Shown here: piece after piece, positions 7,941-14,099 of the stretch
Layout of the letters: every line of letters begins with the position of its first letter
Position numbering within the stretch: the first letter of the stretch is position 1
Assembly: GCA_003278095.1 (NCBI GenBank)
Contig: QCHB01000010.1
Location: 1 to 64,000 of the forward strand
Length of the DNA: 64,000 nt
Source of the DNA: SAR116 cluster bacterium AG-390-L20
Lineage (GTDB): Bacteria; Pseudomonadota; Alphaproteobacteria; Puniceispirillales; Marisalimonadaceae
Reading direction: 5' to 3'
The notes under the pieces: generated by a model
What the model was told of the DNA's origin: nothing
The model's input: only the letters and a program-made list of their open reading frames with translations
The model's database searches: none
Made by a program: the position numbers and the translations under genes

Positions 7941-8546
7941 TTAATTAAGCGTTGAAGATTTTCTAGATAAAAATTCTTTTTCTGTGACTATGTAATCTAA
8001 ATTCATATCATGATTTTCATAAGGTATTTTATCAATTTCTTGTTCACTATACGAAAGTCCAATTGTAATAAAAAACTTTTTTTCTTTTTGAAAGTATTTT
8101 TTTAATTTAATTATAGATTTGTCATAATATCCACCTCCATATCCAAGTCTAAAAAATTTTCTATCAAACATTAATATTGGAACAATCATCATTTGAGGAA
8201 AAATAATATTTTTGTCATTAGTAGGTTCTAGATTTCCTAAAGAACCAATTTTTAATTTATCTTCAGGAGACCATTTCCTAAATAGCATAGATTTTTTTTC
8301 GATATCTACAACTGGCAAACTCATAACTATGTGTCTGTCCTCAAAGTGTTTTACAAACTCAAAAGGTTCTATCTCATTGTTTATAGGGTAATATAGACAT
8401 GCTGTTTTGATGTTATGATTATAAAAAAATATATCATCTAAACAATATTTTATTTGTTTGGCTAAGTTTGTTTTAGATACAAAATCTAATGTAATTTCGG
8501 ATCTTTTATTTTTAGCTAAAATTCTAAGGTGTTTTTTCATTTCCAT
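7941..8546 (-). CDS. 5-formyltetrahydrofolate cyclo-ligase
   Basis: The enzyme converts 5-formyl-THF to 5,10-methenyl-THF with ATP. The family signature RLGYGGGYYDK is near residue 133, preceded by a PQMMIVPILMFD segment, in a 201-residue protein (normal length). It lies directly downstream of the 6S RNA, as ygfA/fau follows ssrS in E. coli, so it is probably expressed by readthrough from that RNA. Two start codons lie two codons apart (MEMKK); the choice is not resolved. Confidence 0.93.
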   Translation of the reverse strand: MEMKKHLRILAKNKRSEITLDFVSKTNLAKQIKYCLDDIFFYNHNIKTACLYYPINNEIEPFEFVKHFEDRHIVMSLPVVDIEKKSMLFRKWSPEDKLKIGSLGNLEPTNDKNIIFPQMMIVPILMFDRKFFRLGYGGGYYDKSIIKLKKYFQKEKKFFITIGLSYSEQEIDKIPYENHDMNLDYIVTEKEFLSRKSSTLN

Positions 8547-8554
8547 GCTCAGCC

Positions 8555-8715
8555 GAAAATACGAAAGCCAAATAGTCGTTGGATAAGTTATCCTATGTTG
8601 CCTGTTTAACAGGTGGGCGCCATATACTGAAACCAGGGTTACAGAAGAGACGGCTCCCTAAAGATACTTATGGCCCCAAGGATTAAAATTCCTAACAAAA
8701 AATCCAGCTTTCTGA
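8555..8715 (-). ncRNA. ssrS: 6S RNA
   Basis: 6S RNA mimics an open promoter and sequesters sigma-70 RNA polymerase. The 176-base gap between zapA and the 5-FCL gene is unusually GC-rich for this genome and has no reading frame. It carries a GGGAGCCG…GGCGCCCACCTG block resembling alphaproteobacterial 6S RNA. A hairpin CCTGT-TAA-ACAGG lies near its centre. The ends can pair: GAAAGC at 8712-8707 with GCTTTC at 8568-8563, closing a rod-like structure. The order zapA - ssrS - 5-FCL is the conserved context. The ends are approximate. Confidence 0.8.
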
Positions 8716-8722
8716 ACTCATT

Positions 8723-9043
8723 TTATTTATTTTCAAGTAACTTTGCAACTTTATTCATTCTATCAGTAGCTTTAGCTAACCAATCAATGAAATCTTCAAT
8801 TTCAATTAAATTTAAATCTTTATCAGAACTCGATTCTTTGTTTATAATTTTGTCAGCTAATATTAGAGAGGTCATAGCTAATAATCTTGTCTCACCTACC
8901 ACACCAGAGACCTTGGATAGATCTTCAATAACTTTATTTACCTCTTGAGAAGACTCAATGAGTCTGTCCTCTTCTCCAGATATACATGATACAGGATATT
9001 TTATACCATTGATATCCACATTAACAGTTACTTTATTTGACAT
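8723..9043 (-). CDS. zapA: Cell division protein ZapA
   Basis: ZapA bundles FtsZ protofilaments at the division ring. The 106-residue protein starts with the ZapA fold (VTVNVDINGIKYPVSC), then GEEDRLIESSQEVNKVI and ETRLLAMTSLILADKI, and ends in a coiled-coil helix. Length and composition fit the family. It lies just upstream of 6S RNA and 11 bases after a small coiled-coil gene, as in other alphaproteobacteria. Confidence 0.9.
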   Translation of the reverse strand: MSNKVTVNVDINGIKYPVSCISGEEDRLIESSQEVNKVIEDLSKVSGVVGETRLLAMTSLILADKIINKESSSDKDLNLIEIEDFIDWLAKATDRMNKVAKLLENK

Positions 9044-9461: not shown

Positions 9462-10388
9462 ATGAAAATGACTGGAATTATAAAAAAAATATTGAATAAT
9501 TATGAAAGTGATAATCCAGGGGTTAAAGCGAATTTAGCAAATATTTTAATGTCTGGTAAATTAGCTGGTACTGGTAAATTAGTTATTCTTCCAGTTGATC
9601 AAGGTTTCGAACATGGTCCAGCAAGATCTTTTGCAAAAAACTCTCTAGGTTATGATCCTCATTATCATTTTAAGTTAGCAATAAACGCTGGTTTGTCTGC
9701 TTTTGCAGCCCCTTTAGGAATGTTAGAAGCCGGTGCTGACACTTTTGCCGGTCAAATTCCTCTAATCATGAAAGTAAATAGTTCTAATTCCTTATCAAGA
9801 GAGAAAGGGGCTCCTACCCAAGCTATAACAGGTTCAGTTAGCGAAGCAATTAGGCTTGGATGTTCTGCTGTGGGATTTACTATTTATCCAGGATCTGACG
9901 CGGCTTTAGATATGATAACAGAAATTCAAGAAATTGCACTTGAAGCTAAGGATGCAGGTCTTGCTGTGGTAGTTTGGAGCTATCCACGGGGAGGAGATAT
10001 AAGTAAAGAAGGAGAAACGGCAATAGATATTGTTTCTTACGCAGCTCACATAGCCGCATTAGTGGGAGCCCATATAATTAAAGTAAAGCCTCCAACATCT
10101 TTTATTGAACTAAGTGAAGCCAAAAAAGTTTATATGTCAGAGAATATTTCAATTGATACTTTAACTGACCGTATAAAACATGTTGTGCAATCATGCTTTA
10201 ATGGGAGAAGGTTAGTAGTTTTTTCAGGTGGAAACTCAAGAGATAATGATAGCCTTTTGAAAGAGGTGAAGGAACTATATTTAGGAGGAGCAAGCGGATC
10301 AATAATTGGTAGGAATTCTTTTCAACGGCCATATGATGAAGCCTTAGATTTGTTAAACCAAATTACAAATATATACAGAGGAAAGTAA
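9462..10388 (+). CDS. fbaB: Class I fructose-bisphosphate aldolase (DhnA/FbaB type)
   Basis: This enzyme cleaves or forms fructose 1,6-bisphosphate in glycolysis and gluconeogenesis. The 308-residue sequence has the DhnA-family opening LVILPVDQGFEHGP near residue 42 and WSYPRGGDISKEGE. The segment AHIIKVKPP contains the likely Schiff-base lysine. A C-terminal phosphate-binding loop (VVFSGGNSRD … GGASGSIIGRNSFQRP) follows. An AAAGGG ribosome site precedes the ATG. It is followed one base later by efp. No pgk or class II aldolase is nearby. Confidence 0.93.
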   Translation: MKMTGIIKKILNNYESDNPGVKANLANILMSGKLAGTGKLVILPVDQGFEHGPARSFAKNSLGYDPHYHFKLAINAGLSAFAAPLGMLEAGADTFAGQIPLIMKVNSSNSLSREKGAPTQAITGSVSEAIRLGCSAVGFTIYPGSDAALDMITEIQEIALEAKDAGLAVVVWSYPRGGDISKEGETAIDIVSYAAHIAALVGAHIIKVKPPTSFIELSEAKKVYMSENISIDTLTDRIKHVVQSCFNGRRLVVFSGGNSRDNDSLLKEVKELYLGGASGSIIGRNSFQRPYDEALDLLNQITNIYRGK

Positions 10389-10389
10389 T

Positions 10390-10956
10390 TTGAAAGTTAA
10401 TGGAAACACAATAAAACCAGGTAATGTTATAGAACATAAAAATGGATTGTGGGTGGCAACCAAAACAAGCCATGTAAAGCCAGGTAAAGGCGGAGCATTT
10501 GCACAAATTGAGCTAAGAAACTTAAAGGATGGATCAAAACTTAATGAACGCTTTAGGTCCTCTGAAAATGTGGAAAAAGTCATCTTAGACGAGACACCAC
10601 ATATATTTTTATATCAAGAAAATAATAATCTTATATTTATGAACAATCAAACATTCGAGCAAATTACTATAAATATTGATATGATAGGAGACCAAGCAGC
10701 TTTTTTACAAGATGGAATGAATGTTATTATAAATTTATATAATGAAAAACCTGTGTCCGTTATTATGCCTGATAATTGTGTTGAAGAAATAATTGAAGCT
10801 GATGCTGTTATAAAAGGGCAAACAGTTTCCTCATCTTTTAAACCAGCTATTTTAAAGAATGGGATCAAAGTAATGGTACCTGGTCATATTGAAGTTGGAA
10901 GTAAAATAGTAGTTAGACCTTCAGACGGTACTTACGTAGAAAAAGCTAAAACTTAG
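10390..10956 (+). CDS. efp: Elongation factor P
   Basis: EF-P binds between the P and E sites of the ribosome and rescues stalling at consecutive prolines. The 188-residue protein has the three OB-like domains and the conserved loop KPGKGGAF. K33 is at the position that is lysylated in E. coli (K34). The frame opens with TTG one base after the aldolase stop; no in-frame ATG is available, so translation is probably coupled. Whether the modification enzymes EpmA/EpmB exist cannot be judged here. Confidence 0.96.
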   Translation: MKVNGNTIKPGNVIEHKNGLWVATKTSHVKPGKGGAFAQIELRNLKDGSKLNERFRSSENVEKVILDETPHIFLYQENNNLIFMNNQTFEQITINIDMIGDQAAFLQDGMNVIINLYNEKPVSVIMPDNCVEEIIEADAVIKGQTVSSSFKPAILKNGIKVMVPGHIEVGSKIVVRPSDGTYVEKAKT

Positions 10957-10994
10957 CAATAGTATATATATCAAATATCTAATTTGGAGTGAGA

Positions 10995-11792
10995 ATGAGT
11001 AATAAGTCACCACTTTTAAATATTATTTTCCAATCTTTAAATAAAGTAACAAGAAATGTGCTTAGAGATTTTGGAGAAATTGAAAATTTGCAAGTTTCTC
11101 CAAACTCTATTGATAATTTCGTATCAAGAACTGAGAACAAAGTTTATTCTACACTAATGGAGGATTTAACTAAATCTAGGCCAACGTGGGGAATGAAATT
11201 AAATTCTATTGAAGAAAGTATTGAAGATAAATATTATTGGATAGTTGATACGTTAAACGGACGATTTAACTTTTCTCATGCATTGCCGTATTTTTCTATT
11301 TCAATTTCAGTAGAATATAACAATGAAATTTTATCTACTGTTATTCTAGATCCATTAAGAGACGAATTATTTTTTGCAGAAAAAGGTAAGGGATCCTATC
11401 TAAATGATAGGAGAATACGAGTCTCTCGAAGAAGTTCAATAGGCTCATGTGTGTTTTCAATATATGACGATAGTCAAACAACAAACAACAAAATAACTGA
11501 AATCTTTGAACCGATATATGCTCTAGCGTCTAAGTACTCGTCAGTTACACGTGAATTTGGATCCTCAGCTTTAAATTTTGCATGGCTAGCTTCTGGAAAA
11601 ATTGATTGTTTATTTACTAATAATTTAAACAAGAATCAAGTTGCGTGTGGAGAACTTTTAATAAAAGAAGCTGGAGGATACTTAACTAACTTAAAATATA
11701 TTAATGCTTACAGAAGTTATGGTGATTTGTTAATTGGTGCAAACCCAACCTTACATAAAGAGCTTCTTAAAAAGATTAATAATAAATTTTAA
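10995..11792 (+). CDS. Inositol monophosphatase-like protein (SuhB family), catalytic residues substituted
   Basis: Length (265 residues), order and motifs fit the IMPase/SuhB family: DELFFAEKGKGSYLND, GSSALNFAWLASGKID and CGELLIKEAGG are all clear. However, the metal-binding motif D-P-L-D-G-T reads DTLNGR, the W-D of the usual W-D-x-A-A-G reads N-Q, and the E-E-S-G motif is missing. Only one of the usual catalytic acids (in WIVD) is recognisable, so phosphatase activity is doubtful. A structural or RNA-polymerase-associated role, as reported for SuhB, is possible. The start is taken at the ATG with TTGGAG seven bases upstream, rather than an earlier GTG. Confidence 0.8.
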   Translation: MSNKSPLLNIIFQSLNKVTRNVLRDFGEIENLQVSPNSIDNFVSRTENKVYSTLMEDLTKSRPTWGMKLNSIEESIEDKYYWIVDTLNGRFNFSHALPYFSISISVEYNNEILSTVILDPLRDELFFAEKGKGSYLNDRRIRVSRRSSIGSCVFSIYDDSQTTNNKITEIFEPIYALASKYSSVTREFGSSALNFAWLASGKIDCLFTNNLNKNQVACGELLIKEAGGYLTNLKYINAYRSYGDLLIGANPTLHKELLKKINNKF

Positions 11793-11839: not shown

Positions 11840-11857
11840 ATTTTATTTAAATAAAAT
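11840..11857. promoter_or_regulatory. 18-base perfect palindrome before the MotA-like gene
   Basis: ATTTTATTTAAATAAAAT is its own reverse complement and ends 11 bases before the likely ATG. As RNA it would form a 7-bp A/U stem with a UUAA loop. It could be a weak processing or operator site, or chance in AT-rich DNA. Confidence 0.3.
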
Positions 11858-11868
11858 TGAGGATAAAA

Positions 11869-12921
11869 ATGACAGATCCAAATAAATATGCTTTTAGAAT
11901 GCTGCTTTTGTTAGTTATTGTAATTATTTTAATTTCATTTTTATTTGTTCCTTTAAAACAAGCTTTTGAAGGCAACACTGCCCTTAATAGTGTGATTATT
12001 AGTACTTTTATTTTAGGTACTATCTTTTCATTCCGGCAAACCTTTCGTTTGAGCAAAGAGGCTAAATGGCTGAGATTTATTAAAAGAAAAGATAGTTTAA
12101 TGCCTGCTAATGTTGTTCTTAAAATAAAGCCAACACTTCTTGCACCTGTAGCAGCTGTCCTTACTGAAAACAGGAAAGATAACCCCTCATTATCTGCAAA
12201 TTCATTAGGAACTATTCTGGACGGAGTTTCATCAAGATTAGATGAAAGTAGAGAAATTTTGAGATATATGATTGGACTTCTTGTCTTCCTAGGTCTGCTA
12301 GGAACATTTTGGGGTTTGCTTCAAACAATTTCATCTGTTTCTGGAGTTATCAATACAATTGATTTTAATATTGGTAACAATCCTAACGATGGTAACTCAT
12401 TATTTATGGATATTCAAAAAGGACTAAGTGCTCCTCTTAATGGAATGTCTACAGCATTTTCTTCGTCCTTATTTGGTCTTGCTGGCTCACTTATTTTGGG
12501 ATTTTTAGATCTTCAAGTTGGTCAGGCAAGTAATCGTTTCTTTAATGAACTAGAAGATTGGTTGTCTCAAATGGCTATTTTTACTGCAAGTGAAGGAGGA
12601 AGCACTGGCTTAAGTGAGGCAGCTGTAGAAAATTTAGCAATTGTATCCAAGCGTGCTAACCAAAATGAGAATGAAAGAGTAAGGATAACTGAAAATATAA
12701 ACGAATTAACAATTGTTTTAAATCGACTAGTTGAAAAACTTGATGAAGATAGAAGTGTAAAAGATCATTTAATTACTATTTCATCAATTCTTAAAAATTT
12801 AAGTGAACAAAATACTAATAGTATTTCAGAATTTCAATCTAATTTAACTTTAGAGTTAAGAGCCATTTCAAAACAATTATCAGAAATGGAAAAATCATAT
12901 AACAAGCTGAATAATAAATGA
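11869..12921 (+). CDS. MotA/TolQ/ExbB-like membrane protein (non-flagellar stator component)
   Basis: The protein has two N-terminal membrane segments (about residues 8-28 and 35-55) and a second pair near 140-165 and 200-225. The segments LLVFLGLLGTFWGLLQTI and AFSSSLFGLAGSLILGFLDL are typical of MotA/TolQ/ExbB channels. A charged coiled-coil tail follows (about 260-350). With the next gene it forms a MotA/MotB-type pair found downstream of efp in several alphaproteobacteria; no flagellar genes are near. The start is taken at ATG 11869, which has GAGG 6 bases upstream; an in-frame TTG lies 12 bases earlier. Its job, perhaps powering an envelope process, is unproven. Confidence 0.75.
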   Translation: MTDPNKYAFRMLLLLVIVIILISFLFVPLKQAFEGNTALNSVIISTFILGTIFSFRQTFRLSKEAKWLRFIKRKDSLMPANVVLKIKPTLLAPVAAVLTENRKDNPSLSANSLGTILDGVSSRLDESREILRYMIGLLVFLGLLGTFWGLLQTISSVSGVINTIDFNIGNNPNDGNSLFMDIQKGLSAPLNGMSTAFSSSLFGLAGSLILGFLDLQVGQASNRFFNELEDWLSQMAIFTASEGGSTGLSEAAVENLAIVSKRANQNENERVRITENINELTIVLNRLVEKLDEDRSVKDHLITISSILKNLSEQNTNSISEFQSNLTLELRAISKQLSEMEKSYNKLNNK

Positions 12922-12953: not shown

Positions 12954-14099
12954 ATGTTAAATAAAGTTAGAAGAAGACAGGTAGATTATACATGGCCAGG
13001 CTTTGTAGACGCGTTGGCTAGTTTATTGATGGTAATTATTTTTGTCTTAATGATATTTGTTTTATCGCAATTTTTTCTTTCACAAAAAATGACTGGTCAA
13101 GATGAAGCCTTAGTTGAGCTAAGGAATAATTTAGTAGAGTTAGGTGAAATGCTCTCTCTAGAAAGGCAAACAACAACAGAATTAACAACACAACTATCTT
13201 TGTTGGAAACTAAGATAGTGGAAGTTAAAAAAAACTTAAGATACGAAAAAGAGCTTGTGACTCAATTTAAAGAAGAGCTAGCTGGTCAAAGCAACGTTCT
13301 AAGCCTAAATCAGAGTGAAATTGAAGACTTAAAAGAAAAACTAAAAATAAAGATGCAAGATGCACTTCTTTTAAAGAATAATCTTGAACAGTTAGAAAAA
13401 AGAATAAATAAAAAAGATACAGATATAAATGAAAAGAATGAAACTATTAATGCAAACAAAAAAGAAATAAATGAATTAATATCTGCGTCTCTTAAATTAC
13501 GAAATAAATTATCTCAATTACAAACTCTTTTATCAGCCTACAAGGCAAAAGATAAAAGAGAAAAAGTTAAAACAATTAATATAGGTAAAGAAATGAATTC
13601 TGCTCTTGCTAGAAGAGTAGAAGAACTCCAAAAATTCAAATCAGATTTTTTTGGTAGAGTAAGAGAACTTATTAAAGGACGTAAAGAGATAAGAATAGTA
13701 GGAGATAGATTTGTTTTTCAATCAGAAGTTCTCTTTAAAGTTGGTTCAGAAGAATTAGGAGTTAAAGGACAAGAAGAAATGGCTAAGCTTGCAATAACTT
13801 TAATGGATATAGAAAAATCATTACCTACTGATATTGATTGGATACTCCAAATCGATGGACACACAGATAATTTACCAGTTAAGAAAGGGCAGAATTATCT
13901 AGATAATTGGGAGCTATCAACAAAAAGAGCTTTATCTGTTCTAAGATTTTTAATAAAGCAAGGTATTAAACCTGATAGATTGTCTGCCTCAGGCTATGGA
14001 AGTTTTCAGCCAATTGACAAAAAAAATACTAATATTGCGAGAGCAAAAAATAGACGGATTGAAATGAAAATAACACAGAGCACAAAAACTAATCAATAA
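12954..14099 (+). CDS. OmpA/MotB-like peptidoglycan-binding protein
   Basis: One membrane helix near residues 20-45 follows a MotB-like lead-in (VDYTWPGFVDALASLLMV). A long coiled coil spans about residues 55-225 and an OmpA-type peptidoglycan-binding domain the rest. That domain has IDGHTDNLPVKKG, WELSTKRALSVLRFL and ARAKNRRIEMKI. The aspartate in the membrane helix entry could carry protons as in MotB. With the upstream MotA-like protein it probably makes a stator-like channel anchored to the cell wall. It is 381 residues and lies 32 bases after its partner. Confidence 0.8.
   Translation: MLNKVRRRQVDYTWPGFVDALASLLMVIIFVLMIFVLSQFFLSQKMTGQDEALVELRNNLVELGEMLSLERQTTTELTTQLSLLETKIVEVKKNLRYEKELVTQFKEELAGQSNVLSLNQSEIEDLKEKLKIKMQDALLLKNNLEQLEKRINKKDTDINEKNETINANKKEINELISASLKLRNKLSQLQTLLSAYKAKDKREKVKTINIGKEMNSALARRVEELQKFKSDFFGRVRELIKGRKEIRIVGDRFVFQSEVLFKVGSEELGVKGQEEMAKLAITLMDIEKSLPTDIDWILQIDGHTDNLPVKKGQNYLDNWELSTKRALSVLRFLIKQGIKPDRLSASGYGSFQPIDKKNTNIARAKNRRIEMKITQSTKTNQ

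Follow-up and report, generated by a model that had tools for sequence, protein, structure and literature searches.

A predicted pseudo-inositol-monophosphatase of the SuhB family in SAR116 bacteria, and recurrent loss of the SuhB active site among Alphaproteobacteria

Results

An intact suhB-like gene lies directly downstream of efp

The stretch of DNA analysed here (positions 1 to 64,000 of contig QCHB01000010.1; hereafter the 64-kb window) comes from the 2.2-Mb, 93% complete genome of the SAR116 cluster bacterium AG-390-L20, and carries a suhB-like gene whose product is predicted to be an inositol monophosphatase (IMPase) without a working active site (Table 1). The open reading frame (ORF) at 10995-11792 of the forward strand translates without interruption to 265 amino acids; a GTG six bases upstream of its ATG, at 10989, is also open as a start, and the alignments of relatives begin at the ATG. 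The product scores 97.3 bits with Pfam Inositol_P (PF00459), whose cut-off is 27; this match places it in the IMPase superfamily and bears out the original prediction of an intact IMPase homologue. Its top NCBIfam model is PRK10757, the E. coli-type SuhB, at 108 bits, far under the equivalog cut-off of 332; an active-site-intact SAR116 orthologue (L029) likewise falls under it, at 232 bits. The nearest PDB entry by sequence is 3luz, the SuhB of Bartonella henselae (156 bits).

Gene order agrees with the assignment to SuhB. Searches of 136 genomes of the SAR116 order gave 107 matches, with none in the other 29 genomes, and 72 of the matches were read: 40 of 42 from the family of the window (f1; the cut fragments from G189 and G190, both of the window's genus, were dropped), five from a second family of pseudo-SuhB proteins (f3), and eight of 11 and 19 of 49 from the sister families in which the site is intact (f2 and f4, respectively). 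In all 72, efp lies directly upstream of suhB. In an even sample of the class, comprising 144 genomes at least 90% complete, 133 genomes lying outside the order contributed 134 proteins, and in 114 of these 134 efp is again the upstream neighbor, the remaining 20 having no efp on the fetched stretch. The efp-suhB linkage is thus ancient and predates the SAR116 order, in keeping with the conserved efp operon that had been proposed from the sequence of the window.

Table 1. Coordinates of the suhB-like gene, its diagnostic segments and its neighbors in the 64-kb window.
Feature	Position	Strand	Remarks
suhB-like gene, predicted pseudo-inositol-monophosphatase, 265 aa	10995..11792	+	intact ORF; Pfam Inositol_P; dN/dS
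RDFGEIENLQ motif, residues 24-33	11064..11093	+	end of helix 1 and turn to helix 2 (limits from model)
LNSI in place of metal-binding EESG, residues 69-72	11199..11210	+	E67 equivalent is Asn (alignment to E. coli SuhB)
DTLNGR in place of DPLDGT, residues 85-90	11247..11264	+	D84 kept, D87 to N, T89 to R
NQVACG in place of WDxAAG, residues 214-219	11634..11651	+	metal ligand D212 to Q, W211 to N
efp, elongation factor P	10390..10956	+	38 bp upstream of suhB-like gene; NCBIfam TIGR00038 above cut-off
class I fructose-bisphosphate aldolase	9462..10388	+	upstream of efp; NF006704, 519.8 bits
MotA/TolQ/ExbB-family gene	11857..12921	+	downstream of suhB-like gene; PF01618, 27.3 bits, cut-off 22.9
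OmpA-family peptidoglycan-binding protein	12954..14099	+	downstream; NF006543, 348.4 bits, above cut-off

The catalytic positions are selectively lost

In IMPases, D44, E67, D84, D87, T89 and D212 act as metal and water ligands. Numbered by E. coli SuhB (the reference sequence being identical to that of PDB 6ib7), these positions are occupied by E, N, D, N, R and Q in the window protein, leaving D84 alone in place; IVDTLNGRFNF stands where IVDPLDGTTNF is usual, and W211 is replaced as well. The alignment to E. coli SuhB therefore confirms the three altered segments reported earlier (DTLNGR, NQVACG and the missing EESG, occupied by LNSI), and the claim that most metal-binding residues are gone holds as worded: five of six are replaced, not all.

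The replacements are shared by relatives. Among 29 sequences of the same genus, the window copy included, every one has Asn in place of D87 and Gln in place of D212, which rules out sequencing error. At the same 29 loci the E67 position holds Asn in 26, Lys in two and Tyr in one, T89 is always Arg, Gln or Lys, D44 has become Glu in 26, and D84 is retained in 28. A second genus of the family (g143, seven sequences) uses different substitutes: in 7/7 proteins D87 has given way to Ser, T89 to Lys and D212 to either Phe or Leu, and in 6/7 D84 is Glu. In the five f3 proteins D84 is lost too, and no acidic residue takes its place.

Loss at these positions was compared with loss at other conserved sites by means of 62 positions whose invariance across 146 intact alphaproteobacterial orthologues reaches 90% or more, 50 of them outside the motifs; three proteins that keep four or five of the six residues (L058, L060 and L089) were excluded from the intact set of this and the retention test below. 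The genus of the window has lost 5/6 catalytic positions versus 10/50 of the others (Fisher p = 0.004), and f3 has lost 6/6 versus 6/50 (Fisher p = 3e-5). Loss of the catalytic positions exceeds chance and is selective. Judged by these alignments, the suhB-like protein is very probably catalytically dead.

One further trait of SuhB is only half present. Of the arginine pair that precedes GSAAL, the window protein (REFGSSAL) keeps the first (R183, retained in 40/40 f1 sequences), and the second is gone. The second Arg is also missing in 21/149 intact alphaproteobacterial orthologues, so the pair was not taken as defining SuhB; a study of the superfamily likewise describes the two arginines as very typical of SuhB and not obligatory (PMC5516325).

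Loss spans two SAR116 families and recurs across the class

Within SAR116, the ligands are lost in all 40 f1 and all five f3 sequences examined, whereas all six catalytic residues are kept in 8/8 f2 and 18/19 f4 proteins. A tree of RpoB joins f1 and f3 in one clade (support 89/92, under the tool's starred level), and a single loss is therefore the simplest history. A three-protein tree left the relation of f1 to f3 unresolved (support 0.08), and two separate losses are the alternative, against which RpoB favors the single clade.

Outside the order, all six residues are present in 120 of the 134 proteins in the class sample, four or five in two, and no more than three in the remaining 12; efp is next door in nine of these 12. 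The first threshold yielded nothing in nine class genomes. Searching these with a profile recovered a SuhB-like ORF in six of them, each with at most one catalytic residue, and five of these six ORFs share a short stretch with an EFP-like ORF. In the other three genomes only canonical CysQ/HisN-like relatives, named by eye, were seen and no SuhB was identified. Altogether, 18/139 genomes outside the order with a recognizable SuhB lack half or more of the active site, so that the loss first noted in a single gene is shared by every sequence examined in two SAR116 families and by these 18 genomes besides. One of the 18 (L372, G117) has its SuhB-like region within a 567-amino-acid open frame; Ala, Glu and Ser abound in the later part of this frame, which is possibly a C-terminal extension of the pseudo-SuhB.

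The number of independent changes was counted on an RpoB tree of 52 genomes, in which both SAR116 pseudo families and 11 of the 12 losers identified first are represented. At least nine changes are needed, five of them forced by well-supported branches. The tree search was short and three branches are very long; the count excludes G161 (in which no rpoB was found) and the six losers found later, and treats L060 (from G067, with four of the six residues) as intact. The tree of the gene itself gives six changes, likely an underestimate, as the losers evolve fast and may be drawn together in the tree.

The gene is under purifying selection and its product is predicted to keep the fold

The ratio of nonsynonymous to synonymous substitution rates (dN/dS) spans 0.08-0.26 over 17 pairs compared inside the pseudo families, and 0.09-0.21 over the eight pairs that involve the window copy. 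In most pairs the value is above that of neighboring genes, yet it lies far under 1. The frames are unbroken in all 45 f1 and f3 proteins examined; apparent internal stops in G203 and G214 proved to be normal gene ends. The suhB-like gene is under purifying selection.

An AlphaFold model of the window protein has a mean predicted local distance difference test (pLDDT) score of 87.6. Structural comparison of this model aligns it with P. aeruginosa SuhB at a Z-score of 33.6 over 260 residues, and with the SuhB of the E. coli rrn antitermination complex (6tqn) at 31.8 over 253 residues; the top 25 structure matches are all IMPases and SuhB proteins (Z 30-34, 235-261 residues aligned). As modeled, the IMPase fold is intact, from an input alignment that includes intact relatives and may bias the model toward the family fold.

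An alphaproteobacterial motif outlasts the active site

The N-terminal region of the window protein carries a motif, RDFGExExLQ, which is found in its strict form in 40/40 f1 and 0/5 f3 proteins. A looser form is present in 138/149 intact alphaproteobacterial orthologues, 40/40 f1, 5/5 f3 and 11/12 class losers; E. coli SuhB carries different residues there. Across the 18 losers, mean retention is 0.16 for the six catalytic residues, 0.82 for six motif positions (D22, F23, E25, E27, L29 and Q30) and 0.64 for the 50 other conserved positions, among proteins whose agreement with the intact consensus is 24-58% of positions (24-27% in five of them). A permutation test of motif retention gives p 0.011, an optimistic value given that these sequences themselves contributed to the choice of the motif. 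In intact enzymes this region leads into the mobile loop close to the active site, and a purely structural role of the motif is possible. Its conservation nonetheless makes RDFGExExLQ most likely the best candidate contact surface for whatever role is retained.

Paralogues do not replace SuhB, as far as tested

The loss of ligands raised the question, already posed with the original prediction, of a second, canonical copy. None was found in the source genome: its three other family members are a CysQ-type protein, a HisN-type protein and one that could not be classified. PF00459 matches number four in each of eight f1 genomes (77-100% complete), four or five in six intact SAR116 genomes, and two to four in three f3 genomes (83-88% complete). 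Replacement by a paralogue is rejected on this evidence, in which the source-genome copies were typed as not SuhB and those of other genomes were compared by count alone.

Among these relatives, a CysQ-type 3'(2'),5'-bisphosphate nucleotidase is fused to a TsaC/Sua5-type threonylcarbamoyladenylate synthase in one 593-amino-acid frame (L001:436-2217, minus strand, genome G000, contig C6), and CysQ-TsaC-like open frames of about 600 amino acids recur across many genomes of the f1 family.

Surroundings of the gene

Downstream of suhB, the MotA/TolQ/ExbB-family gene keeps its place in nearly all SAR116 stretches of sufficient length. The aldolase gene upstream of efp is found in the stretches from f1 and f2, as it is in several distant alphaproteobacteria, and is absent from those of f3 and f4, a distribution that suggests loss or replacement inside SAR116. 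Further upstream, a 6S RNA (RF00013, 56.3 bits) occupies 8561-8713 of the minus strand, flanked by a short ORF at 8723-9043 (zapA-like) and an ORF at 7941-8546 (5-formyltetrahydrofolate cyclo-ligase-like), both named by eye; we take this neighborhood to resemble the zapA-ssrS-ygfA order of E. coli. The Rfam suhB RNA is not among the two Rfam matches in the window.

Discussion

A proposed non-catalytic role in rRNA antitermination

The purifying selection on the gene, the clade-wide loss of ligands and the dispensability of the activity in E. coli, as reported in two studies (PMC6614801, PMC4807359), together support the earlier suggestion that selection maintains a non-catalytic role. In E. 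coli, according to those studies, SuhB is part of the rRNA antitermination complex, where it binds acidic repeat 2 (AR2) of NusA and leader RNA and is required for NusB/E integration; the effects of suhB mutants are relieved without phosphatase activity, whereas variants unable to bind RNA polymerase fail to complement (PMC6614801), and the growth defect is not tied to IMPase-defective variants (PMC4807359). By analogy, we lean toward this SuhB transcription role, that is, rRNA antitermination, as what the SAR116 pseudo-IMPase has retained; on balance this is probable.

On this proposal, an alphaproteobacterial SuhB orthologue would have become a pseudoenzyme that keeps the IMPase fold and, by inference, the SuhB dimer, and no longer holds Mg2+ for phosphate hydrolysis. 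It would persist as a structural subunit of an antitermination complex with NusA, NusB, S10/NusE, NusG and the rRNA leader, aiding rRNA synthesis and 30S assembly. Because the E. coli role does not need phosphatase activity, the metal site could be lost freely: where the substrate reaction has no use, a lineage could shed the site while the protein persists. The polar or basic replacements (D to N, D to Q, T to R or K) plausibly neutralize the acidic pocket left vacant by the metal. The source genome does encode a NusA with two acidic repeats.

Several observations weigh against this account. In the genus, acidic residues have newly appeared at positions 78, 159, 220 and 256, at 159 in 29/29 sequences (E. 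coli has Glu at the equivalent of 220), and they make a rearranged metal site conceivable. Together with D84, kept in 28/29 of the genus, and the acidic Glu at D44 in 26/29, they are what can be said for a protein that is still an enzyme, with other residues supplying the metal ligands or with metal-independent or relaxed chemistry. No common alternative ligand set is seen across the genus, g143 and f3, T89 has given way to a basic or amide residue throughout the genus and in f3, and the catalysts C. glutamicum HisN and Cg0911, of the same superfamily, were reportedly inactive without metal (PMC5516325); continued catalysis is accordingly improbable. Gene decay in streamlined genomes, with retention by chance on the way to loss, has in its favor that 8/12 class losers have genomes of 0.8-2.0 Mb and that some losers are very divergent, the five of 18 at the low end of consensus match among them. 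The other four class losers, however, have genomes of 2.1-4.0 Mb, the loss is common to genera at about 40% identity, and the low dN/dS and intact frames are not those of a dying gene. Since the changes are common to relatives and dN/dS is low, artefact and decay were rejected, and we regard decay as very improbable.

The remaining difficulties concern antitermination itself. RDFGExExLQ is typical of Alphaproteobacteria and foreign to E. coli SuhB, and any tie between it and the E. coli complex is conjectural. The position of E. coli R184 is Arg in 128/149 intact alphaproteobacterial orthologues, and this Arg is not kept in f1 or f3; K251, an E. coli contact to NusA-AR2, is Lys in 37/40 f1 and 0/5 f3 proteins and is not among the commoner residues of the intact orthologues, an inconsistency that argues against a general K251-AR2 contact. 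NusA acidic repeats are undetected (E 0.01) in 5/22 pseudo-SuhB genomes (G032, 83% complete, and G150, G108, G117 and G149) versus 0/15 intact ones, so the AR2 contact is not the whole story in these five, and since every genome in which the repeats went undetected carries a pseudo-SuhB, our confidence in antitermination is slightly lowered. The three genomes without an identified SuhB all show the repeats. In E. coli, AR2 is reportedly dispensable for SuhB to join the complex, yet contributes to antitermination (PMC6614801). A 16S gene was not found in the seven genomes searched for one, complete ones included, which made the boxA leader unreadable there. The R184, K251 and NusA-repeat patterns lend weight to a different non-catalytic role, specific to Alphaproteobacteria, exerted through the RDFGExExLQ surface and perhaps linked to elongation factor P, the ribosome or a metabolite-binding sensor; the near-universal motif, and an efp linkage older than the order, also fit it. 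No partner for such a role emerged here, however, operon neighbors often share expression rather than function, and transcription is the sole non-catalytic role of the family met in the literature consulted. We consider this second role rather unlikely, and continue to favor antitermination.

Relation to known systems

E. coli SuhB (2qfl, 6ib7, 6ib8 and 6tqn) shares the fold (Z about 31, 25-26% identity) and, in the studies cited above, has a role independent of IMPase activity (PMC6614801, PMC4807359), but its six catalytic residues are all present, phosphatase activity is described for it and it lacks RDFGExExLQ. B. henselae SuhB (3luz, 3lv0), the nearest solved relative by sequence, has a similar N-terminal motif, whereas its EES, DPLDGT and WDMAAG motifs are intact; efp linkage is shared with orthologues of the class, in a sample without Bartonella. 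The SuhB proteins of f2 and f4 share the operon order efp-suhB-motA-like-ompA-like in nearly all fetched stretches, yet 26/27 keep all six catalytic residues. Pseudophosphatases of other folds, as described in reviews, have likewise lost catalytic residues and play regulatory roles; among the titles and abstract openings listed in searches of open-licence papers, neither an IMPase-family pseudoenzyme nor a naturally inactive SuhB appeared. The ability of E. coli SuhB to work without catalysis is already known. The same titles and abstract openings contained no account of SuhB being inactivated in nature, whether throughout a SAR116 clade or repeatedly in the class, with the alphaproteobacterial motif retained.

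Implications

More broadly, we tentatively entertain a picture in which Alphaproteobacteria keep SuhB for a non-catalytic function, a dispensable phosphatase activity has been lost repeatedly and independently, and the RDFGExExLQ surface is the working part, an interface undescribed in E. coli SuhB; we consider this slightly less likely than not. SuhB is a moonlighting protein whose two roles have been separated by E. coli mutants in the literature consulted. Lineages that keep suhB without its active site provide an independent, evolutionary test of the idea that selection preserves the non-catalytic role. The residues that survive the loss of catalysis are those of the RDFGExExLQ motif together with N91, G132, R139, R141 and E222, and the pseudo-SuhB proteins offer clean material, which should perform the non-catalytic job alone.
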